From contig JACPIA010000004.1 in assembly GCA_016188295.1 (NCBI GenBank), positions 1 through 42,477 on the forward strand: DNA of 42,477 nucleotides. Direction: 5' to 3'. This stretch comes from Candidatus Vogelbacteria bacterium. Lineage in GTDB: Bacteria; Patescibacteriota; Minisyncoccia; Phycocordibacterales; XYD1-FULL-46-19. Made by a program: the position numbers and the translations under genes. The notes under the pieces are model-generated. The model saw only the letters and a program-made list of their open reading frames with translations, ran no database searches and was not told the origin of the DNA. Positions 10,839 to 29,867 of this stretch are shown piece by piece; the stretch's first letter is position 1; each line of letters begins with the position of its first letter.

Positions 10839-11267
10839 ATGGAGCGAGCAATAGGTATTTTTCTAAAACATCGGATCCGGCTCGCTAAATATCTAATCTC
10901 CGGCTGTACTGCGGCCGCGGTCAATATTGGTTTTTTGTATTTATTTACTGATATTTTTGGTTGGTATTATTTGGCCTCGGGAGTAGTTTCTTTTATTTTA
11001 GCGTTTGGAGTCAGTTTTACTTTGCAAAAATTTTGGACCTTTGAGAATCATAATCGTGAGCTATTAACCAAGCAATTAGTTATTTATCTGGTTGTTTCTG
11101 TTTCCAGTTTAATTATCAATACCTTAATGCTCTATGTCTTGGTTGATTGGTTTGTAGTTTGGTATATTTTAGCCCAAATTATCGCCGGGGCTTTAATTGC
11201 CTGCGTTAACTTTTTTATTTATCGATTTATCATCTTCCATCAGCCATTAATTCAGGTAGAACAATAA
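10839..11267 (+). CDS. GtrA-like polyprenyl-linked sugar flippase family protein
   Basis: RLAKYLISGCTAAAVNIGFLYLFTDIFGWYYLASGVVSFILAFGVSFTLQKFWTFEN. Confidence 0.88.
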   Translation: MERAIGIFLKHRIRLAKYLISGCTAAAVNIGFLYLFTDIFGWYYLASGVVSFILAFGVSFTLQKFWTFENHNRELLTKQLVIYLVVSVSSLIINTLMLYVLVDWFVVWYILAQIIAGALIACVNFFIYRFIIFHQPLIQVEQ

Positions 11268-15171: not shown

Positions 15172-16185
15172 ATGCTTAAAGTTTATACTGGCAAGCCTTT
15201 ATTTGATCAGCCTCATATTGAGGCGCTTTATCCCAACTGGGGCCGGCGGTCGTCTACGCGTTGGTCCGATCAAGCTTTTAAATGTTTAACCGAGCCAGTG
15301 GTGGAGGTGGTGTCTGATCCAACATTGGCTGATTATTTGTTATTGCCTCATAATTGGAATTTGGTTAAAAATAATAAGGATTATTTAGCTGATTGGGAAA
15401 ATTTAATCAAATCAAGTGGCAAAAAAATAATTGTGTTTAATCCGGGTGATGATGGCGAGCCAGTAAAACTTAAAAATGCAATAATTTTTCGCCATTCTCA
15501 ATATCAATCAAGTCTACTGTCAAATGAGATTATTATGCCCGGATATGTGGAAGATTTAGGGGTAAGCGGAGTGACAGTACAGACTAAGCGACCAAAACCG
15601 ATTATTGGTTTTTGTGGTTGGGCCAAGTCGGCTTCCTGGTGGCAGAATCTAAAAACAATAATTAAAGCAGAAATCACCTATCCACTTTATAAACGTCAGG
15701 GCTTGTTCTGGAGGAAACGGATTTTAGGATTTTTGAAACAATCAAATTTAATTGATACAAATCTTATTATTCGTGGTAGTTACTCGGGGAATGAAAAGAC
15801 GATTGAACTTGATCCTAAGCTAGCACGGGAGGAATACATTAATAATGTTACTAATTCTGATTTTACTTTATGTGTCCGTGGGGATGGCAATTTCTCAACG
15901 CGGTTTTATGAGGTGTTGAGTTTAGGACGCCTACCGCTCTTTATTGATACTGATTGTGTCTTGCCGTTAGAAGATAAAATAAATTATGACGAGATAATGG
16001 TTAGAGTAAATTATCTTGATCTAAAACAAGTTGATCAAATAATTAGCCAAGCCTACCAATCTTGGTCGGAGGCGGAATACGCGATCCGTCAACAGAAAGC
16101 TCGAGAAATCTTTGAGCAATATTTACGTCTAGATAAATTTTTAACACTTACTCTAACTAAAGAGTTTTTAAGACAATATGCTTAA
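15172..16185 (+). CDS. exostosin-like (GT47) glycosyltransferase
   Basis: SDFTLCVRGDGNFSTRFYEVLSLGRLPLFIDTDCVLPLEDKINYDEIMVRV matches exostosin signature order. Confidence 0.75.
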   Translation: MLKVYTGKPLFDQPHIEALYPNWGRRSSTRWSDQAFKCLTEPVVEVVSDPTLADYLLLPHNWNLVKNNKDYLADWENLIKSSGKKIIVFNPGDDGEPVKLKNAIIFRHSQYQSSLLSNEIIMPGYVEDLGVSGVTVQTKRPKPIIGFCGWAKSASWWQNLKTIIKAEITYPLYKRQGLFWRKRILGFLKQSNLIDTNLIIRGSYSGNEKTIELDPKLAREEYINNVTNSDFTLCVRGDGNFSTRFYEVLSLGRLPLFIDTDCVLPLEDKINYDEIMVRVNYLDLKQVDQIISQAYQSWSEAEYAIRQQKAREIFEQYLRLDKFLTLTLTKEFLRQYA

Positions 16186-17584
16186 AAAGATCTGTTTAAT
16201 TTTGTTAGGCTGTTTAGCTCTCTTTTTTGTGGGGTATCGTTTAACTGAGAGTCCACCAACTTGGATGGATGAGGGGATCATTATTCAATCAGCTCGGAGT
16301 GTTGCTCAAAATGGAGTATTTGGTTTGCCAGAGGCACCGGGTCAATTTGTGACGGGCAGTTTTTTGACTACTGGTTATCCGGTGGTGTATCCAATTGCCC
16401 TAGTGTTTAAATTAGCAGGAGTTGGTCTCTTTCAAGCGCGTTTAGTAATGGCCGCTTACATTCTATTATTGTTAGTCTTGGTCTATTTTTTAGCGCTTAA
16501 AATTAATGGTAATAATTGGTTTAGTTTAACAACCTTAGCTCTTCTAGTCACTTTTGCGCCACTTTACGGCCAAGGACGCAATGTTTTGGGTGAGGTGCCG
16601 GGTATCTTTTTTATGTTGGTGTCGATATGGTGCTGGTATTGGCTGGCTGATCGGCCCAGTAAATGGTTAGCTAGTCTGGCGGGAGTATCCCTAGGTTTAG
16701 CTTTAGTGACCAAGCCAACTTTCTTACCATTACTACCAGCTGGTATTCTTACTATCGCTTTATTTATTTATCGCCGACAATTATCTTGGGCGCAAAGTAT
16801 TTGGACAATGATAGGCGCTATTATTCCGTTGATTATTTTTTACTTTGCTCAATTATCTAGTGAATCATTTGCTCAAATATTGGCATTTTACAGCAATCCT
16901 CACGCAGTTTCATTAGTCGAGATTATTAAAGCAAATATTTATCGTTTAACAACCGAATTAGAGTCGGTTTATTGTTTGTTATTACTATTAGTATGGTGGA
17001 GTAGTCTGGTTGGTCGTTGGTATTTAAAACAATCAGTAAAGTCAGCTGAAATTGGTGCCGCTCTAGCATCCTCATTCTTAATGTTGGCTTATTTACAGAC
17101 AGTAGGGTATTATCGCTATTTTTTGGCGCCAGAGATTTTAGGTTTAATATACTTGCCCAGCTCACTTAAGTGGTGGTGTGAGCAATTTTCGTCGTTAATC
17201 GTGCGGAGAGTTATGCTTATAGGTCTATTTATTTTGATTGTTTTTCAATTCAATCAGAGTGTGTTTTATTCCTGGGTGGCTAAACATTACGCTAGCCAGC
17301 GTGCAGCCTCATTAACCACTTATTTTAAACAGCCAGAGCATCAACAAACTTACTTTTTATATCAGGCACCAGTGGCGGCTACTTTTTTAGGAAATAAAGA
17401 CTATTATCAGTATTTACTAATTACCCCTAAGGTAATTATTGGCGGGGAGTGGCAAAATAACCCGCCAGCTGATGTTTCGGTGGTACTACCTCAAGATCTT
17501 GATTTAAATAATTTGGCTTGGGCTGAAGATTATGAAACAGTCGATTTGGTTGATCAGTTTAGAATTTTAGAGCCAAAATATTAA
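16178..17584 (+). CDS. polytopic membrane glycosyltransferase (GT39/ArnT-like GT-C)
   Basis: TWMDEGIIIQSARSVAQNGVFGLPEAPGQF...; LGEVPGIFFMLVSIW; many TM helices. Confidence 0.7.
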   Translation: MLKKICLILLGCLALFFVGYRLTESPPTWMDEGIIIQSARSVAQNGVFGLPEAPGQFVTGSFLTTGYPVVYPIALVFKLAGVGLFQARLVMAAYILLLLVLVYFLALKINGNNWFSLTTLALLVTFAPLYGQGRNVLGEVPGIFFMLVSIWCWYWLADRPSKWLASLAGVSLGLALVTKPTFLPLLPAGILTIALFIYRRQLSWAQSIWTMIGAIIPLIIFYFAQLSSESFAQILAFYSNPHAVSLVEIIKANIYRLTTELESVYCLLLLLVWWSSLVGRWYLKQSVKSAEIGAALASSFLMLAYLQTVGYYRYFLAPEILGLIYLPSSLKWWCEQFSSLIVRRVMLIGLFILIVFQFNQSVFYSWVAKHYASQRAASLTTYFKQPEHQQTYFLYQAPVAATFLGNKDYYQYLLITPKVIIGGEWQNNPPADVSVVLPQDLDLNNLAWAEDYETVDLVDQFRILEPKY

Positions 17585-17591
17585 ATTTATT

Positions 17592-18707
17592 ATGAATCTT
17601 GTTTTTGTCGCTAATAATCGTCTACCGACGGAAAAAGCTCATGGTTGGCAAATTGCTAAAACTTGTGAGGCTTTGGCGGTTAATGGCGTTAAAGTAACTT
17701 TAATCACTCCTAAAGTTAAACGCTATGAAGAAGTCGATTTACACCAGTATTATCGGTTAGAATCAAATTTTAATAACATTGCTTTGTCGGTGCCCTATTT
17801 ACTTAATCTAGGAATAATTGGTTTTTCTCTTCGTTCATTATGGTTAGGAGTAAAAACAAGTTGGTGGATTAGAGAACAAAAAATAGATTTTATTTATTCT
17901 CGCGATTTATTAACACTTATGATTTGTCGCTTATTTGGGTATAAGACCGTTTGGGAAGCTCATGATGTTCGTCATCGTTTGATTACTTACTTCGGTTTAA
18001 AATTTACTGCCGGTTTAGTAGTGATTACTAATGGTTTAAAACAGGTTTATAATGATCATTTTAGTTACTTTAAAAAAATATTGGTTGCGGCGGACGGGGT
18101 GGAGGTGTCAGATTTTGATCTTAAATTAACTAAATCAGAGGCGAGAGCTAAATTAGGATTACCACTTAATAAACAATTAATCGTTTACACCGGGCATTTA
18201 TATAGCTGGAAAGGGGTTGATACTTTAGCCGAAGCGACCAAACAATTAACGGATAATCAGTTGGTAGTGTTGGTTGGCGGTACGGAAGTAGATTTAAAAC
18301 GATTTAAATCGGCTCAAACTAATAATGATCGCATACTAATCTGTGGTCATCAGCCTCACCATTTAATCCCGTTTTATTTACAAGCTGCAGATGTGTTAGT
18401 GTTGCCCAACTCTGGCCGAGAAGCAATATCCAAATATTACACCTCACCCCTTAAACTGTTTGAATATATGGCCAGCAATCGGCCGATTATTGCCTCTGAT
18501 CTACCCTCAATTAGGGAAATTTTAGATAATGATAATGCCTTTTTGGTGCCAGCTGATGAGGTTACTATTTTGGCCAATGCAATAAAGCAAACTTTAGAAA
18601 ATGAGGATTTGGCCCGGGCTAAAGCATCGAAGGCTAAGTTGGATGTTACCAATTACACTTGGGATAAACGAGCCGAGCGGATCAAGCGTTATCTACAAAC
18701 TTTATGA
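17592..18707 (+). CDS. glycosyltransferase family 4
   Basis: LIVYTGHLYSWKGVDTLAEATKQL ... TSPLKLFEYMASNRPIIASDLPSIREIL. Confidence 0.9.
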   Translation: MNLVFVANNRLPTEKAHGWQIAKTCEALAVNGVKVTLITPKVKRYEEVDLHQYYRLESNFNNIALSVPYLLNLGIIGFSLRSLWLGVKTSWWIREQKIDFIYSRDLLTLMICRLFGYKTVWEAHDVRHRLITYFGLKFTAGLVVITNGLKQVYNDHFSYFKKILVAADGVEVSDFDLKLTKSEARAKLGLPLNKQLIVYTGHLYSWKGVDTLAEATKQLTDNQLVVLVGGTEVDLKRFKSAQTNNDRILICGHQPHHLIPFYLQAADVLVLPNSGREAISKYYTSPLKLFEYMASNRPIIASDLPSIREILDNDNAFLVPADEVTILANAIKQTLENEDLARAKASKAKLDVTNYTWDKRAERIKRYLQTL

Positions 18708-19402
18708 ATATAACCATCGTTATTCCTACTTATAATGAGCGAGAAAATATTGCGCTTTTAATTCCTAAATTAGCGGGAGTGGTTCCAGAAGCTAAAATTT
18801 TAGTGGTGGATGATAATTCGCCTGATGGTACCGGGGCCCTAGTTTGTGATTTGATGTCTGAATATCGTAATTTAGCGATATTGGCTCGTCCTAGTAAAGA
18901 AGGTCTCGGTAAGGCTTATATCGAAGCTTTTAAACAGGTTTTAGTGGATCAGACCACGGAGGTGGTGATTATGATGGATGCCGATGGTTCACATGGTCCC
19001 CAATATTTACCGGCCATGTTGGCTAAACTTAATCAAGCCGAGGTAATAGTGGGCTCGCGTTACTGTGTCGGTGGGGGGACACTTGGTTGGGAATTGTGGC
19101 GCCGAGCGCTTAGTTTTTGTGGTAATATTTATTGTCGAATGATTACTGGTATACCTATTACCGACTGTACTGGTGGTTTTAATGTGATATCGACTCGTTT
19201 TTTGCGACAGGTTAATTTAGCAGTGATGGATATGTCTGGTTACGCTTTTATTATGGAATTAAAATATCTATTATACAAAACTGGCGCTCGATTTGTTGAA
19301 GTGCCGATTATTTTTAGAAACCGGATTGGTGGTGAATCAAAACTATCCGGGCATATTATTAGCGAGGGTATCATCGCTCCACTTAAGATGAGATTTAAAT
19401 AG
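18704..19402 (+). CDS. polyprenol monophosphomannose synthase (GT2, DPM1-like)
   Basis: MNITIVIPTYNERENIALLI ... ILVVDDNSPDGTG ... MMDADGSHGPQYLP ... GSRYCVGGGTLGWELWRR. Confidence 0.9.
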   Translation: MNITIVIPTYNERENIALLIPKLAGVVPEAKILVVDDNSPDGTGALVCDLMSEYRNLAILARPSKEGLGKAYIEAFKQVLVDQTTEVVIMMDADGSHGPQYLPAMLAKLNQAEVIVGSRYCVGGGTLGWELWRRALSFCGNIYCRMITGIPITDCTGGFNVISTRFLRQVNLAVMDMSGYAFIMELKYLLYKTGARFVEVPIIFRNRIGGESKLSGHIISEGIIAPLKMRFK

Positions 19403-20178: not shown

Positions 20179-20198
20179 TTTGCTATATTAGGGTGGTT

Positions 20199-22193
20199 AT
20201 GGAATTGCTCTCGACGACTGTTTTCTTAGTGGTAGCTGTTTTTTTTGGTTACGTTTTAGGGCGCTATGTCCTAGATGAAAATCGGGTTTTTGTCCTAGTA
20301 CCAGTTTCGATCATCCTTGGAATTAATGGCTATATTTTTCTAATTAATACGGGGTCATATCTTATACCAATCAGGGTTAATGTCTGGGTTGTATTTGCTT
20401 TTATTGCGGCTCTGTCTTTGGGTGTTTTTATTTGGCGGCGTCAGAAGGTGATGACACTTGCCTCTATCTTTACTGCTAAACAACTCTGGGTTCTGTTTGG
20501 GGTGGCGGTGTTCATCTCGCTCTCTTCTGGTTTGATTGCTATTAAATCATTAGCCCTCGATGATCTTAATATTGCTCATTTGCCACTAGCAAGGACTATT
20601 ACGGAAGGCAATTTCCCGGTGATGGATCCTAGTGCTCCGAATCACATTCTTTCTACACACTATGGCCCTGATTTAGTTGCAGCTGTTTTTAATTTAGTCA
20701 CCAAAATCCCTTTGTGGCTTGCTTACGATTTACAAATTTTTCTCTTTAGTGGAGCGCTTTTCCTAATGCTCTTTGTTTTGGTTTATGATGTGACTAAACG
20801 ATACAGAGCGTCAATGGTAGCCGCGTCCCTCTTTCTTTTTGGTACCGGTTTACAATGGTTATATTTTTTTACTGAAGGTATACCCGTCTTGTGGCAGCGC
20901 TATGTTAATGGCGAGGCGGTGATAGCTCCCTGGCGTTTTCTGGCGGATATCGCTTTTCCTCAATTGAATACTAGTTATATCTATAGTATGCATAATCATT
21001 CTATAGTGGTTGGGGTACCGATGCTTATTCTTGCTTTATGGCTGTACTTTAAATCTCTTTCGACTAATACTACTCGCCAATCCATCAGCTATGTTATTTT
21101 TTCTGCTTTCGCTTATGCCTATGTGGCCCTTAACTTGGAGCCACATTTTGTGATTACTTTTTTGGCGTTTTTGACGTTATTAGTTATTGCCTTTATTGAT
21201 CGGTGGTTTTCCTGGTTAGGTGACACCTTTTCTTTGATACGATCGAAAGTTTTTTTACGTAATACCATTATCTTGCTAGTAATCAGTGTTGGCTTATCTC
21301 TGGTCCAAGGGGGGATTATTACCTCCCTTTTCCAAGACAACGATCATGCTAGTATTGTTTTGGTTAAAGATTGGCAGGAGTTTACTTACTTTAATTTGGC
21401 TCCCGATCCCGCTGGTCTAAATGATCCCAACACTTTTATCTATCTTTTGAGCTTTGATTTCTTTGTACAGTTTGGTTTACCACTTTTGCTAATTATCCCA
21501 GCCTTAATCTATTTTCTTAAAAGAAAAAATGGAGAATTTCTTTTTATTGCCATTATGGCTTTGGGGGCATTTGTGGTGCCATTTTTGTTTAGACTACCAT
21601 TAAGAAATTGGGAAATGTCTCGGTTTTTTCTCATTGCTATCCCGTGGTTTTGTTTAACTATTGGAGTATTTCTCGAGGCTAAGTATCGAGCGGCGATTTC
21701 TTTATCTGGCCGCAGAGGGGTAATAGTGCTAGGAATATTGGTAGGTTTGACTGGAGTAATTTCACATTTAATGTTTACAATATCTAATTTAGATCGATTT
21801 GGTCAGATTAGCCCACTTATTATGCGGCCGCCAGCTCCCAGTGCGGTTGATGCTCCGGCTTACAATTGGATTAATGATAATACAACCCTTAAGGATAGGT
21901 TTTTCCCATATGATACAGAGTTTATTCGTTTTACTGGACGTTACACCCCAGGTGCGCCCTATAATTTTACTTTTAGTCAACGTGAGGTTGAACGCTCGTG
22001 GTACAACCAAATTATTAGCGACTGTTCGCTTGAAGCGTTTCACTTTTTTGAGATCAATTATTTATACGTTAGTCCTGAATTTCCAATTAAAAATATCAAT
22101 GCTTGTCTTAAAAAATTGAAGGCCCAACCAGTCTATGAATTGGTATTAGATGACAATTACCGCCGGGTCTATCGTTTACCAAGTAACTATTAA
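20199..22193 (+). CDS. large polytopic membrane protein, GT-C-like
   Basis: Multiple TM segments; extracytoplasmic-type motif SLALDDLNIAHLPLARTITEGNFPVMDPS; soluble C-terminus. ATG 20199 preferred over GTG 20193. Confidence 0.6.
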   Translation: MELLSTTVFLVVAVFFGYVLGRYVLDENRVFVLVPVSIILGINGYIFLINTGSYLIPIRVNVWVVFAFIAALSLGVFIWRRQKVMTLASIFTAKQLWVLFGVAVFISLSSGLIAIKSLALDDLNIAHLPLARTITEGNFPVMDPSAPNHILSTHYGPDLVAAVFNLVTKIPLWLAYDLQIFLFSGALFLMLFVLVYDVTKRYRASMVAASLFLFGTGLQWLYFFTEGIPVLWQRYVNGEAVIAPWRFLADIAFPQLNTSYIYSMHNHSIVVGVPMLILALWLYFKSLSTNTTRQSISYVIFSAFAYAYVALNLEPHFVITFLAFLTLLVIAFIDRWFSWLGDTFSLIRSKVFLRNTIILLVISVGLSLVQGGIITSLFQDNDHASIVLVKDWQEFTYFNLAPDPAGLNDPNTFIYLLSFDFFVQFGLPLLLIIPALIYFLKRKNGEFLFIAIMALGAFVVPFLFRLPLRNWEMSRFFLIAIPWFCLTIGVFLEAKYRAAISLSGRRGVIVLGILVGLTGVISHLMFTISNLDRFGQISPLIMRPPAPSAVDAPAYNWINDNTTLKDRFFPYDTEFIRFTGRYTPGAPYNFTFSQREVERSWYNQIISDCSLEAFHFFEINYLYVSPEFPIKNINACLKKLKAQPVYELVLDDNYRRVYRLPSNY

Positions 22194-22195
22194 AA

Positions 22196-24652
22196 ATGAA
22201 AACGTTATCAATTATTATTCCAGCTTATAACGAGGCTTTAAGGTTACCCATTACTTTAGAAAAAATCAAAATATTTTTTGAGTCGGTTAAACCTTTTAGT
22301 TTAAAAGAAGTGATAGTGGTTGATGATGGCTCTAGTGATAATACGTCTCTAATCGCTAAAGATTTTACTGACAGGCTACCGGTCAAAGTTGTTACGCTAA
22401 ATAAAAATTGCGGTAAAGGGGCGGCGGTGCGAGCTGGGGTTAAAGCGGCTGTTAGCGACTGGGTATTTATCTACGATGCTGATGCCGCAACGCCAATTGA
22501 GGAATTGATTAATTTTTTTATTGCTAGTCAAAAAAGCGATATTGTGATCGGTTCGCGAGTTGGGCAGTCTGACCGTACAGTCGTAATGTCTCGGTGGCGG
22601 CGATTTGTTGGTTGGTGTTTCCACACCTTATGTGCGCCACTTTTGCCAGATATTGCTGATGCCTCTTGTGGCGCTAAACTTTTTTCTTACAAGGCCGCTC
22701 AGACGATTTTTAGTGAGCAAAAGCTCAATCGCTTTGCTTTTGACATTGAGATTTTATGGTTGGCTAAAAAGCTAGGTTATAAGATTGCCGAGTTACCGGT
22801 CGAGTGGTTTGCGGTCCCCGGCTCTAAGGTAAGTATCGTCCGAGATAGCTGGGAGATGTTTTGGTCGGTAATTAATTTATATTGGAGAGCCCTTAGATCG
22901 CGGCTACAGAAACATATCTGGGCTATTTTAGTAGCGATGTTGATCGGCGTGATCTATATCGCTCCTCACTTATATTTTGCGTACGATTTGGGAGATGAAT
23001 ATCAAGGAGTGTATATGTCTGGGTCTTATGATGAAGTTTTTTACTACAATTTAATCAGGCAGGTCTATGATGGGGAGTCGGTAGTTTTAAACCCTTATTT
23101 GGTGGAATATCCAGTTACCAGCATTAGCTCATTTTATCGGCCTATTGAATACACTATTGGATTAGTCGGTAAAACTCTCAATTTGTCAATCACTCAAATT
23201 GCTATTAGTTCTAAATTTATCTTTCCCGGCCTAATTTTTTTAACGATTTATCTTTTTGGCTACATTATCTCTGGTAGTCGGTCCGCTAGTTTAGTGGCTG
23301 GTATGGCGGTGTTATTAGGATCAGAGCTGGCTCCTTTAAATCTTGATTCAGCGTGGCGGACTTTGATTTTAGATAGCCCCTTCCATTCTTTTTTAACTTA
23401 TAATCGGCCGGTTAATCCCCAAATTAGTGTTATTTTCTTCTTTTCAAACCTTAGCCTATTGGCTCAAGTTTGGTTGTCACCGCACTTAAAGAGGTATGTG
23501 GTTTTAGCTGGTATCTTGACTGGTCTGTTGGCTTACATTTATTTTTTCTTTTGGAATTTTACTTTAATTTTAATTGGGCTGTTACTGCTCGCGGCCATTT
23601 TTAAGAAAGATAAATTATTAATTAAAAGTTTAGTTTCAGTGTTAGGGTTAAGTCTAGTGGTCTCTTTACCGTTTTTATTTAAAATGCTTGCGACTTTAAG
23701 TGTTGGTATCGCCAGTGTCCAAAAAAATTATGTTTTAACTCACCGGTTTATAGTCGAAAAGGTGATTTTGTTACCACTGTTATTATTAACCACTGTTTAC
23801 GCTTGGAATTATTTAATGACTAAACTTAATTATCCTTCTAAACGGGTATTTGTTTGGTTTGATCAAGCTAAATTTTACTTCTTATATATTTTAATCTGGG
23901 CCGGTTTTTGGGCCAGTAACCAGCAGATGATTCATGGTCACGAAGTCCAGCAACATCATTATCATTTTATGACAAATATTCCCGTCTTTATTATCGTGAC
24001 GGTAATAATTGGGACAATTTTCTTAAATCAATATTTTAATAGACTAAAACCGTATCTGATGGGCTTAAGTATTGTCATAATAATTTGGTCTGGTATTAGT
24101 GTACAGACATCATCATATCGCTTTTTACTGCCGTTATTTACTAATAGTCAAGCGTATGCCGGGGCTTTTAATTGGTTCAATCAAAATACCGCAGTCAATG
24201 AGGTGGTTTATGCCAGTCGTGAGTTGGAGGAATTGGTACCGATGTATACTCATAATGCTGTTTATGATGCTTTACATGCCAGTGTTTATCCGATACCTCT
24301 GGAACGTTTGGAGCATAATTATTTTTTAGGAATGATGTTAAATGGTGTTACGACTGGACAAGCTAAAGAGTATTTATATACTAATCGTAATGATGTCGGT
24401 CAGCGTATTTTTGAAGGTCAATATTGGCGGGCGGTCTGTGGCTCATTTGGCTGCTTCCCAGACACTGTCTTAGATGATTTAGTAACCAAGTACCAGCTTT
24501 TTGTAGCTAAACCCTTAGAGTGGCAATTTAGGCGCTACCAGGTCGACTATATGTTGTGGGATCAGTCTAAACATCCACAATGGCAATTAGACCGCCTTGG
24601 GTTTTTAAAAGAAGTGTGGTGTAAAGATAAATTGTCAATCTGGCGCTTTTAG
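22196..24652 (+). CDS. fusion: ALG5-like GT2 polyprenyl-P-glycosyl synthase + polytopic GT-C-like membrane domain
   Basis: N-term LSIIIPAYNEALRLP ... VVDDGSSDNT ... NKNCGKGAAVRAGVKAAVSDWVFIYDADAATP; C-term ~580 aa with many TM helices (YIAPHLYFAYDLGDEYQGVYMSGSYDEVFYYN...). Confidence 0.78.
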   Translation: MKTLSIIIPAYNEALRLPITLEKIKIFFESVKPFSLKEVIVVDDGSSDNTSLIAKDFTDRLPVKVVTLNKNCGKGAAVRAGVKAAVSDWVFIYDADAATPIEELINFFIASQKSDIVIGSRVGQSDRTVVMSRWRRFVGWCFHTLCAPLLPDIADASCGAKLFSYKAAQTIFSEQKLNRFAFDIEILWLAKKLGYKIAELPVEWFAVPGSKVSIVRDSWEMFWSVINLYWRALRSRLQKHIWAILVAMLIGVIYIAPHLYFAYDLGDEYQGVYMSGSYDEVFYYNLIRQVYDGESVVLNPYLVEYPVTSISSFYRPIEYTIGLVGKTLNLSITQIAISSKFIFPGLIFLTIYLFGYIISGSRSASLVAGMAVLLGSELAPLNLDSAWRTLILDSPFHSFLTYNRPVNPQISVIFFFSNLSLLAQVWLSPHLKRYVVLAGILTGLLAYIYFFFWNFTLILIGLLLLAAIFKKDKLLIKSLVSVLGLSLVVSLPFLFKMLATLSVGIASVQKNYVLTHRFIVEKVILLPLLLLTTVYAWNYLMTKLNYPSKRVFVWFDQAKFYFLYILIWAGFWASNQQMIHGHEVQQHHYHFMTNIPVFIIVTVIIGTIFLNQYFNRLKPYLMGLSIVIIIWSGISVQTSSYRFLLPLFTNSQAYAGAFNWFNQNTAVNEVVYASRELEELVPMYTHNAVYDALHASVYPIPLERLEHNYFLGMMLNGVTTGQAKEYLYTNRNDVGQRIFEGQYWRAVCGSFGCFPDTVLDDLVTKYQLFVAKPLEWQFRRYQVDYMLWDQSKHPQWQLDRLGFLKEVWCKDKLSIWRF

Positions 24653-24666
24653 ACTACTATACCAAC

Positions 24667-25605
24667 ATGATCACTAAGAAGAAAATCTCAGCTATTATCG
24701 CCTGTTATTGCGACGAGTTAGCGATCCCGATTATGTATGAGCGCTTAACCAAAATCTTTAAGGAGATTGGTTGTCAGTACGAGATTATTTTTATTAATGA
24801 TGGTAGCCCGGACAACTCCCAGGCGGTATTAACGGCCATTGCCGAGAAGGATAAACAGGTGGTGGTGGTAACCCACTCGCGCAACTTTAGTACCCAAAAT
24901 GGTTTTATTAGTGGGATGACGGTGGCTACTGGTGATGCAGTGGTCCTACTCGACGGTGATTTACAGGATCCACCCGAGATTATCAAGGAATTTGTATTTA
25001 AGTGGTTGGAGGGCTATGATGTGGTTTACGGAATTAGGACTAAACGAGAAGCCACTCGTTTTTTACAAGTGTCTTATAAATTATTTTATCGTTTGTTTAG
25101 TAAATTATCTTATATTAAAATCCCACGTGATGCTGGCGACTTTTCACTTATTGATCGAAAGGTGGTTGAGGTATTGCTAGCGATGCCCGAGCGCGATATG
25201 TTTATCCGGGGGATGCGGGCTTGGGCCGGCTTCCGTCAAATAGGTGTACCTTATTTTAGACCAGAACGCATGTTTGGGGTGACCACCAACAATTTGCTTA
25301 AAAATATTCGTTGGGCTAAAAAGGGGATTTTTTCCTTTTCCTACGAACCATTAGAATTTATTTTCTATTTAGCGATTATCACTTTTGTTATTGCGTTAGT
25401 GGGTATTATAGCTTATGTGAGCCTGTATTTTATCTATCCTGATCAGCCGCGGGGGATTACCACGGTTATTGTGCTGGTCTTATTCTTCAGTAGTATTCAA
25501 CTCCTTAGTTTGAGTATTATTGGCGAGTATTTAGGTCGTATTTTTGAAGAAGTTAAACAACGGCCCAAGTTTGTGGTTAAAAGTATTTTAAATAAGCCGA
25601 AGTGA
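24667..25605 (+). CDS. GtrB/DPM-like GT2 with two C-terminal TM helices
   Basis: ISAIIACYCDELAIPIMYERL ... FINDGSPDNS ... LLDGDLQDPPEII ... RDAGDFSLIDRKVV. Confidence 0.9.
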   Translation: MITKKKISAIIACYCDELAIPIMYERLTKIFKEIGCQYEIIFINDGSPDNSQAVLTAIAEKDKQVVVVTHSRNFSTQNGFISGMTVATGDAVVLLDGDLQDPPEIIKEFVFKWLEGYDVVYGIRTKREATRFLQVSYKLFYRLFSKLSYIKIPRDAGDFSLIDRKVVEVLLAMPERDMFIRGMRAWAGFRQIGVPYFRPERMFGVTTNNLLKNIRWAKKGIFSFSYEPLEFIFYLAIITFVIALVGIIAYVSLYFIYPDQPRGITTVIVLVLFFSSIQLLSLSIIGEYLGRIFEEVKQRPKFVVKSILNKPK

Positions 25606-26509
25606 TTTGCTTGCTTAAATTATTAGCGGACAAGCCGGCTTGGTCTAACAAGTAGTCACGATTACCAACATTTTTAATAAAGTGATCGGGTAAACCAAAA
25701 GACTTAAATAATTTTGGTCTGATTAGTGAACTAAGTAGCAATTCAGCCACTGCTCCACCTAAGCCCCCAATCAGACTGTGCTCCTCAATAGTAAAAATGG
25801 CTCTAGCTTTTTTAGTTTTAGTCAAAATGAGTTTGTGATCTAGAGGTTTAACACTAGGCATACTAATTACCGACACCTTCTTTTTTAAAACACTCTCTAC
25901 TTTTTCAGCAGTGGCTATGGCTAGATCTAAAATATTGCCGGTACTGATCATCACAATATCTTGACCAGGCTTTATCTCGTAGCCTTGGCCGATCTTGAAT
26001 TGCCATTTTGATTGAGAAAAGTCAGTGCCCGGGTTTTTACTTAAGCGCATATAAGTTGGGCCAGGAGTAGTGAGAGCGGCTTTAGTGGCCCCGGCTGCTT
26101 CCCAAGAGTAAGCGGGACACATTACCTGCATATTAGGTAAAGCGCGCATAATGGCGATATCCTCCACGGTATGATGGGTAACGCCATGGGTGGCGTAATT
26201 ATAACCACCACCTGCCCCAAATAATTTAACATTCAAATTGTGATAGCAAACATCAGTTCGAATTTGCTCAAAACAACGTAAAGTCAAAAAAGAGGCAATC
26301 GAGTAAGTGATGACGGTTTTGCCATTTAAGGCTAAACCGGTAGCTACCCCAATCATATTAGCTTCAGCTACACCCACGTTGATAAAACGGTCTGGGAATT
26401 TATCGCGTATTGACTCTAGGGCGTTAAAGCCTAGGTCGGCTGTAAGGAAAAAAATATTTGGATTTTTCTTCATTTCAACTAATACTTGTTTAACAAAGTC
26501 ATGTCTCAT
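25577..26509 (-). CDS. transketolase, C-terminal subunit
   Basis: DRFINVGVAEANMIGVATGLALNGKTVITYSIASFLTLRCFEQIRTDV ... HHTVEDIAIMRALPNMQVMCPA. Confidence 0.9.
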   Translation of the reverse strand: MRHDFVKQVLVEMKKNPNIFFLTADLGFNALESIRDKFPDRFINVGVAEANMIGVATGLALNGKTVITYSIASFLTLRCFEQIRTDVCYHNLNVKLFGAGGGYNYATHGVTHHTVEDIAIMRALPNMQVMCPAYSWEAAGATKAALTTPGPTYMRLSKNPGTDFSQSKWQFKIGQGYEIKPGQDIVMISTGNILDLAIATAEKVESVLKKKVSVISMPSVKPLDHKLILTKTKKARAIFTIEEHSLIGGLGGAVAELLLSSLIRPKLFKSFGLPDHFIKNVGNRDYLLDQAGLSANNLSKQITSAYLKYF

Positions 26510-27336
26510 AACCTTTTCTTTTTACCGTGAATCTGGTAAGTCTCATCATCAGGGATAAAGTAGTGGGCGAGGAGAGTGTTCTCAATTTTAGGGATACTTT
26601 TACCGCTAATAGTGTCGGCTAAAACCACCGCAGGTCGGGGCGATAATTTAGCTTTAATAATCATTTGCTCTAGCTCCTTAAGGTTGTGGCCAGAAGTGCG
26701 GAAAACGTCCCAACCAAAGGCGGCCCATTTTTTAGCTAAGTCCATGGTGTGGACCTCGCCGGTTTTGCCAAAACCTTGGAATTTATTTTCATCAACAATC
26801 ACAATTAAGTTACTTAGTTTATGGGTGGCGGCAAACATCGCACCCTCCCAGACCGAGCCTTCGTTGCACTCACCGTCGCCCATTAAGACAAACACTTTTT
26901 TTAGGGGGCAGTCCTGTTTCATCGTCAAGGCAATACCAGCACCAATCGAGAGACCATGGCCCAGTGAGCCGGTGGAGACCTCAATCCCGGGGCCGGCGGT
27001 AGTACAGGGGTGGAGGTGAAAAGTACCGCCATCCATTCGATAACCCTCCAAGCGTTTTTTAGGAAAAAAGCCGCGCAAAGCCAAAGTGGCGTATAAAGCG
27101 GCACCACCATGACCCTTGCTTAAAATAAAACGATCACGATCATACAGCTCTGGTTTTTTAGGATTAATCTCTAAAACACGAAAATAAAGCACGGCCATGA
27201 TGTCACTAATACACAAAGCCGAGCCCGTCTCGCCCGATTTGCTACGGTAACCCATCTCCACAATTAATCGTTTGATCTCTTGGCTTAATTTGGACACTTT
27301 AGCCAAGGGAATTTTTTTAGTAATCTTACTTGGCAT
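26506..27336 (-). CDS. transketolase, N-terminal (TPP-binding) subunit
   Basis: RDRFILSKGHGGAALYATLALRGFF ... STGSLGHGLSIGAGIAL ... VFVLMGDGECNEGSVWEGAMFAATHKLSNLIVIVDENKFQGFG. Start ATG 27336 (MPSKITKK). Confidence 0.9.
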   Translation of the reverse strand: MPSKITKKIPLAKVSKLSQEIKRLIVEMGYRSKSGETGSALCISDIMAVLYFRVLEINPKKPELYDRDRFILSKGHGGAALYATLALRGFFPKKRLEGYRMDGGTFHLHPCTTAGPGIEVSTGSLGHGLSIGAGIALTMKQDCPLKKVFVLMGDGECNEGSVWEGAMFAATHKLSNLIVIVDENKFQGFGKTGEVHTMDLAKKWAAFGWDVFRTSGHNLKELEQMIIKAKLSPRPAVVLADTISGKSIPKIENTLLAHYFIPDDETYQIHGKKKRL

Positions 27337-28264
27337 AAAATTGTTGATTATTTCTGAACCAGTCAATATTTTTTTTAATTCCGACTGCAAACGGAGTTTT
27401 GGCCTCAAACTTTAAATCAGTTTTTAATTTGGCGGTATCGGCGACCCAAATATTAGTATCAAACGGACGCTTAGGGTAAGTATTCCATAGTAATTTAGAG
27501 TTGCTCTTAGTTTCAGACATCACTGTATTCACTAAAGTTTGCAGGGTTTGTTGCTTACCACTACCTAAATTAAATACTTGACCACCTAAGTCAGGGCGAT
27601 TACCTGCTTGGATAATAGCGTCAACGATATCATCAACATAAATAAAATCGCGAGCGGTGTCAGGTGAAGCCAGCGGGATGTCGCGATTATTTAAAGCATT
27701 TAAAATTAAGACAGGCAACAATCGAGTTGGTTCCTCATATGGTCCGTAAACTGAGAAGAGACGTAAGGTAATTACTGGTAAGTCCTCGGTGTTGGAAAAA
27801 TGTTGACCCAATAGTGTTTGAGCTACTTTACCCACGGCGTAGTAGCTATTAGGATCAACGCGCTCATCCTCATGCATCGGGTGATCTTTGGTGCCATATT
27901 CTGAAGAGCTACCAGTACTAACGACCATTTTAACACCGGCCGCTTTGGCCGCTTGGAGTAAGTGGAGGGTGGCCATGACTGTGGTCTGGAGAGCCAATTC
28001 GGCGTCTTTTTGAAAAGGGTAAGCCCCGTAAACTACTAAGTGATAGATGATCTCGGGTTTAACTTGAGTGATAATCTCACTCACTTTAGCTTTATCTAAA
28101 ATATCACCCTCATGGATGGTGATTTGATTGCGAATAGATTCTAAGCGCCAGCTGTTTTTAGATTGAGCCCGGACCAAGCCATGGATCTCATGACCTTGCT
28201 CTACCAGTTTATGAGCCAAATTAGCTCCCACAAAGCCGGAGATGCCGGTGATAAAGACTTTCAT
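27326..28264 (-). CDS. NAD-dependent epimerase/dehydratase (extended SDR)
   Basis: MKVFITGISGFVGANLAHKLVEQGHEI; YYAVGK (YxxxK); DFIYVDDIVDAI. Confidence 0.88.
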   Translation of the reverse strand: MKVFITGISGFVGANLAHKLVEQGHEIHGLVRAQSKNSWRLESIRNQITIHEGDILDKAKVSEIITQVKPEIIYHLVVYGAYPFQKDAELALQTTVMATLHLLQAAKAAGVKMVVSTGSSSEYGTKDHPMHEDERVDPNSYYAVGKVAQTLLGQHFSNTEDLPVITLRLFSVYGPYEEPTRLLPVLILNALNNRDIPLASPDTARDFIYVDDIVDAIIQAGNRPDLGGQVFNLGSGKQQTLQTLVNTVMSETKSNSKLLWNTYPKRPFDTNIWVADTAKLKTDLKFEAKTPFAVGIKKNIDWFRNNQQFYAK

Positions 28265-29253: not shown

Positions 29254-29867
29254 AGCTGTTAAAAAAAATCTTGAATATTCCCATCGTCTGGAATACGCTT
29301 CAAGGTGTAGTCGGGGCTAATACTTTTAAGTACGCCATGTACCCCTCGGTGTTTAAGTCACGGAGCGGTAAGCTCCTAGACTTTGGTTGTGCTTGCGGTA
29401 ATAGCACGGAGGCTTTTTTAGATTTTGACTATTGGGGCGTAGATATTGATCGAGAGGCCATTAAAGATGCCAGTAAAAAATTTGCCTCCTATCCTAATGT
29501 TAAATTTGAATGGGCGGATTTGGCTCAAGCGCCTTACAAGCCAGATTTTTTTGATCATGTTTTATTTGCTGGCACGATTCACCATCTTGATCCTAGGTTA
29601 TTACCACTCTTTATTAAAAACCTATTAGTTTCACTTAAGGTGGGAGGGGAGTTACATATTTTTGAGATCATCCGCCAACCACAGAAAGATAATTTTATTA
29701 CCAAGCTATTTCTCCATCTTGATCAAGGTAAGTATATTAAGACCGAATCAGAATTAAAAGCTATTTTTAAACAAGAGGGGTATAAAATCGCTGAGACACA
29801 ATTTTTTCCTAGTCCTAATAGTTTAATTAAATTGCCCGATTTTGTTTATTTTCGAATCATCAAATGA
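29250..29867 (+). CDS. class I SAM methyltransferase
   Basis: LLDFGCACGNSTEAFLDFDYWGVDID ... FAGTIHHLDPRLLP. Confidence 0.85.
   Translation: MKLLKKILNIPIVWNTLQGVVGANTFKYAMYPSVFKSRSGKLLDFGCACGNSTEAFLDFDYWGVDIDREAIKDASKKFASYPNVKFEWADLAQAPYKPDFFDHVLFAGTIHHLDPRLLPLFIKNLLVSLKVGGELHIFEIIRQPQKDNFITKLFLHLDQGKYIKTESELKAIFKQEGYKIAETQFFPSPNSLIKLPDFVYFRIIK

Follow-up and report, generated by a model that had tools for sequence, protein, structure and literature searches.

Three-component glycosylation systems are composed of a GtrB synthase, a GtrA flippase, and a GT-C transferase (PMC11127046). The GT-C enzymes possess 7 to 13 transmembrane helices (PMC11127046, PMC5836110) and an acidic motif in an extracellular loop, in most cases the first one, for which DXD, DXE, EXD, DDX, or DEX are listed (PMC5836110). 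A related case of two membrane-associated activities in one chain is Ppm1 of M. tuberculosis (Rv2051c), in which an Lnt domain is joined to a polyprenol-P-mannose synthase; in relatives, the two are free and adjacent (PMC3460810).

The locus described here resembles the three-component systems (PMC11127046, PMC8035078, PMC5836110) in that all three kinds of component are predicted from one surface-glycan cluster. It differs from them in that synthase and GT-C are joined in one polypeptide, that the GtrA gene lies 11 kb away, and that the GT-C family has no match in Pfam or NCBIfam. With Ppm1 it shares the fusion of a polyprenyl-P-sugar synthase to a large membrane enzyme, the two being free and adjacent in relatives. 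In Ppm1, however, the synthase is preceded by an N-acyltransferase, whereas here it is followed by the putative GT-C transferase. The three-component systems and both kinds of enzyme are already known, and only their joining is unusual; the excerpts of open-access literature on these systems that were available to us contain no mention of a fusion between synthase and GT-C.

The fusion is encoded in the window, the whole stretch of 42,477 nucleotides that was analyzed, which is part of a 163-kb contig from a tiny-genome bacterium of Patescibacteria (genome of 574 kb in 11 contigs). An earlier note on this DNA had proposed that one ORF of 818 aa joins a polyprenyl-P-sugar synthase to a putative GT-C transferase. 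The ORF is confirmed as an unbroken frame on the + strand, and its ATG lies 2 bp after the stop codon of the preceding gene (20193 to 22193). It comprises the following features:

22196 to 24652, + strand: 818-aa fusion ORF, GT2 domain (polyprenyl-P-sugar synthase type) followed by a GT-C-type membrane domain; ATG start, uninterrupted
22196 to 22909, + strand: GT2 domain, residues 1 to 238
22322 to 22330, + strand: DDG nucleotide-binding motif, residues 43 to 45, intact
22475 to 22483, + strand: DAD (DXD) metal-binding motif, residues 94 to 96, intact
22910 to 24649, + strand: GT-C-type domain of an unnamed family, residues 239 to 818
22970 to 23209, + strand: predicted first extracytoplasmic loop, residues 259 to 338
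23030 to 23035, + strand: D279-E280 acidic motif (YDEVFYYNLIRQVYDG) in the first outer loop, putative catalytic acid
24092 to 24649, + strand: C-terminal extracytoplasmic domain by predicted topology, residues 633 to 818, about 180 residues

The GT2 domain is matched by Pfam Glycos_transf_2 (PF00535) over residues 5 to 170 (E = 1.2e-24). Its top two PDB matches are the dolichol-P-mannose synthase (DPMS) 5mlz (1.8e-13), followed by ArnC (2.5e-11). With both motifs intact and such synthases as its closest characterized relatives, the domain is of the polyprenyl-P-sugar synthase (DPMS/GtrB/ALG5) type, as had been suggested. A more specific ALG5-like assignment is plausible through the motifs D-x-x-x-G-x-K-x-F and FD-x-E-x-L, which we take to be ALG5-like. 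None of the matching NCBIfam equivalogs names the sugar, as PgfS, ArnC, PpgS, and AglJ all score far below their cut-offs (PgfS 59.5 bits versus 500). The domain lacks a membrane helix of its own. The DPMS of 5mlz, its best solved relative, likewise has a fused membrane part that keeps the GT2 at the membrane, but this part is GtrA-like and not GT-C.

The nearest sequence to the GT2 domain is a free GT2 of 239 aa (L117, 54% identity), which aligns with it end to end and comes from G004, a genome in the same family. An Agl23-type gene (TIGR03663, below its cut-off), apparently split by a frameshift (L117:3634-5044), overlaps at its end with the gene of this free GT2.

The junction between the two halves is tight. 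The free GT2 of G004 aligns to residues 1 to 238 and free membrane proteins (L075 and L128, 43 to 44% identity) align from about residue 232, which leaves no linker between the domains. Between Met221 and the middle of the first transmembrane segment (TM1), the reading frame contains no ATG, GTG, or TTG, so that apart from Met221 the ORF offers no obvious place for a separate second protein to begin. Such a frame could also result from an assembly or sequencing error in which two overlapping genes were joined, and GT2 and GT-C genes that overlap in the same order do occur in relatives (for example L242, L243, L260, and L261); the genus is, moreover, represented by one genome only. An error of this kind is nevertheless very improbable, as the junction retains neither leftover intergenic sequence nor an in-frame start between Met221 and TM1, and a second fusion in another genome (G221) shows that the GT2 and GT-C architecture exists.

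The membrane half (residues 239 to 818) was matched by nothing in Pfam, NCBIfam, or the PDB in sequence and profile searches, the PDB returning chance hits only. Even the Pfam PMT_2 model (PF13231) does not match it and weakly recognizes only one of 54 relatives (0.0039). Its affiliation emerges from profile comparison, in which HHalign matched a profile of 93 copies of the membrane domain to alignments built from other membrane proteins of related genomes. PMT_2 is matched with a probability of 98.9 (E = 2.4e-17) over 453 columns at about 11% column identity, and the STT3-type family with a probability of 97.9 (E = 4e-13), while YfhO reaches 30.7. The membrane families outside GT-C that were used as negative controls score 0.1 (MOP flippase) and 0.2 (SecY). 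The domain thus resembles PMT_2/ArnT-like transferases in its long profile similarity, the D-E motif of its first outer loop, and its inside N-terminus, and differs from them in its low column identity, the missing match to the PMT_2 model, and the GT2 domain at its N-terminus.

The predicted topology is consistent with this relationship. Hydropathy averaged over the 93-member family yields 11 hydrophobic segments in residues 239 to 818, a number inside the range described for GT-C enzymes. The density of lysine and arginine alternates between 0.17 and 0.24 per column in inner loops and 0.00 and 0.09 in outer loops; this positive-inside pattern over the 11 helices places the N-terminus inside, an 80-residue first loop outside, and the C-terminal domain outside. 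The acidic motif that the earlier note advised looking for in the first periplasmic loop is found there as D279-E280. Followed by a valine, it takes the DEX form, and it lies within the block that pairs, in the HHalign alignment, with the PMT_2 D-E motif. Column 280 is acidic in 71% of the 93 family members and column 304 in 88%; a catalytic role of D279/E280 is putative and assigned by analogy.

AlphaFold2, given only two sequences of the membrane domain as input, reached a mean pLDDT of 35.3. The assignment of residues 239 to 818 to the GT-C enzymes is therefore supported by homology and predicted topology, not by a structure model. The proposed GT2 and GT-C fusion accordingly stands on the controlled homology, the topology, and the D-E motif. 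The same three lines of evidence speak against a C-terminal region outside the GT-C enzymes, the outcome by which the earlier note would have been overturned. The membrane domain appears to represent a GT-C-type family for which neither Pfam nor NCBIfam has a matching model.

The domain could have a GT-C fold and yet have lost transferase activity, acting as a scaffold or taking part in flipping, as is suggested for Agl23-type proteins by their family name: the closest free GT2 (54%, G004) adjoins a gene of this type, and the acidic motif is not strictly invariant, with the above 71% at column 280. We regard such a loss as improbable, given that the window copy retains its D-E, that the acidic residue at column 304 is kept in 88% of members, and that a GtrA gene is present for flipping. 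An active transferase remains the preferred reading of the membrane half.

The share of sampled genomes that encode a relative of the membrane domain is roughly 8 to 16% (order, 62 of 397; class, 55 of 384; phylum, 23 of 287). Almost all of these relatives are free proteins, about 600 aa in length. Two scans of genome contigs returned one relative, in Candidatus Zambryskibacteria RIFOXYD1, and one of viral contigs returned none. Only two of the 93 copies are fused to a GT2, namely the window protein and one of 839 aa in G221, whose locus also encodes GtrA; they lie on two separate branches. In the trees, the two halves of the window protein cluster with free proteins of different genomes, the GT2 with that of G004 and the GT-C domain with one of the Zambryskibacteria genome (G310), while the G221 halves are placed far from both. 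This points to two separate fusion events, although the trees are quick ones without bootstrap. The search for the architecture elsewhere, which had been recommended, additionally uncovered fusions of a GT2 with a PMT_2 domain over its cut-off in Patescibacteria (L107:2246-4027, 593 aa; L314:62-2215, 717 aa). These follow the same domain order and logic but belong to different GT2 and GT-C subfamilies, so that they probably arose separately.

Some further frames were considered and set aside. Long frames around the membrane domain in G990, G936, and G776 are not GT2 fusions; their N-terminal extensions are without GT2 features and probably non-coding. The N-terminal extension of the copy in G255 (L074) has no Pfam match. 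At L109:6560-8191, a copy split into two ORFs lies next to an unbroken copy.

The fusion is embedded in a cluster that also holds GT4 enzymes, methyltransferases, nucleotide-sugar enzymes, and a MOP flippase, which points to a function in surface glycan formation. The genes most relevant to the fusion are:

10839 to 11267, + strand: GtrA (PF04138), candidate flippase for the lipid-P-sugar, 11 kb upstream of the fusion
16178 to 17584, + strand: PMT/PMT_2 GT-C protein of the same cluster
18704 to 19402, + strand: second DPM/AglJ-like GT2, by Pfam and NCBIfam matches
20193 to 22193, + strand: polytopic protein of 666 aa upstream of the fusion, the same neighbor being kept in Zambryskibacteria
24667 to 25605, + strand: downstream GtrB/PgfS-type GT2 (NCBIfam PgfS 6.7e-71, below cut-off)
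29864: YfhO match, GT-C-type protein of the same cluster

The 666-aa protein has no Pfam or NCBIfam match and is possibly, even probably, another GT-C-type protein. Among named relatives, the locus of Candidatus Zambryskibacteria RIFOXYD1 (G310), from the same order, is the closest to this one. It encodes two GT2s, a 663-aa membrane protein, and the free GT-C, followed on the opposite strand by a free window-like GT2, a GtrB-type GT2, one further gene, and two halves that we take to be transketolase-like. Two such halves adjoin each other in the window as well (25577 to 27408, − strand). The window has nearly the same order and kinds of genes, but its GT2 is joined to the GT-C, whereas in Zambryskibacteria the most similar free copy of this membrane domain (43%) adjoins a free GT2. 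This synteny does not prove that the same gene was captured because the fused GT2 has a closer relative than the free one of Zambryskibacteria.

The same parts are combined differently in other genomes. GtrA is fused to the same GT-C domain in G187, G077, and G140, with a window-like GT2 as the next gene in G187 and G077; the loci are L071:4542-6731 and L072:1423-3615, both with this GT2, and L073:4585-6756. The GtrA part in G077 is called by its sequence similarity to that of G187. In G083, GtrA is fused to a window-like GT2. Together with the GT2 and GT-C fusions, each pair of the three components is thus fused somewhere. It may be, and we suggest this tentatively, that Patescibacteria repeatedly weld the parts of three-component systems in different pairs and that the membrane domain founds a new, widespread GT-C family.

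Other domain combinations were encountered alongside these. The same GT-C domain is fused to a polysaccharide deacetylase domain in G127 (L070:4453-6876). A frame of 1755 aa (L126:1051-6318, G351:C8), of which the first ~120 residues may be non-coding, combines a window-like GT2 with a second GT2, a MOP flippase domain, and a GT4. Proteins that join two GT2 domains of differing type occur in several families of the order (L122:4975-7119, L124:11160-13214, L127:5309-7669, and L245:389-2593).

GT2 genes next to the GT-C domain were counted as same-strand GT2s within 60 bp of it and compared with those near other genes, with related loci treated as independent. On this count, the idea that the GT-C domain generally adjoins a GT2 is not upheld (16 of 92 versus 78 of 593 other genes, p = 0.17), whereas window-like GT2s are enriched beside it (6 of 92 versus 8 of 593, p = 0.006). 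The general result would suit two independent domains: the GT-C would draw on a different donor, and the fusion would serve mainly to hold the GT2 at the membrane, with the GT2 product going to other GT-Cs of the cluster. Candidates for such an exchange are the proteins at 16178 to 17584, at 29864, and probably at 20193 to 22193, beside the GT2s at 18704 and 24667. The genome encodes a further GT-C protein and no fewer than two additional GT2s of this general kind, so that donor and transferase could indeed be cross-paired. Independence is still unlikely in our judgment, as separate lineages have joined or placed side by side GT2 and GT-C domains of the same kinds, and a similar GT2 is the next gene where GtrA is fused to the GT-C.

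The fusion is instead likely to unite the donor synthase and the transferase of a GtrB/GtrA/Gtr three-component glycosylation system in one chain, with the flippase kept separate. This reading draws on two domains in one frame, the GT2 motifs, the GT-C homology, the predicted topology, and the presence of GtrA, all taken from sequence. On the cytoplasmic face, the GT2 domain would transfer a sugar from a nucleotide sugar to polyprenyl phosphate. A separate flippase is still needed because neither domain of the fusion matches one; the GtrA at 10839 to 11267, the single PF04138 match in the genome, would most likely flip the lipid-P-sugar. Outside, the GT-C domain would employ D279/E280 of its first loop to place the sugar loaded by the fused GT2 domain on a surface glycan or protein, and the ~180-residue C-terminal outer domain could bind the acceptor. 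Production inside would in this way be coupled to use outside within one polypeptide, as had been envisaged.

Synthase and transferase normally act on opposite sides of the membrane, and here both predicted tasks fall to one protein. The fusion also points to a GT-C-type family, unrecognized by Pfam and NCBIfam, in about 8 to 16% of the sampled Patescibacteria genomes. GT-C transferases are hard to assign to their donors, and a natural fusion with the likely donor synthase is suggestive evidence of pairing, which comes from bacteria that mostly resist cultivation and whose surface glycans are little known. Should donor and transferase form a physical pair, the fusion may pass the lipid-P-sugar along a dedicated route, and each such fusion would assign a donor to a transferase.
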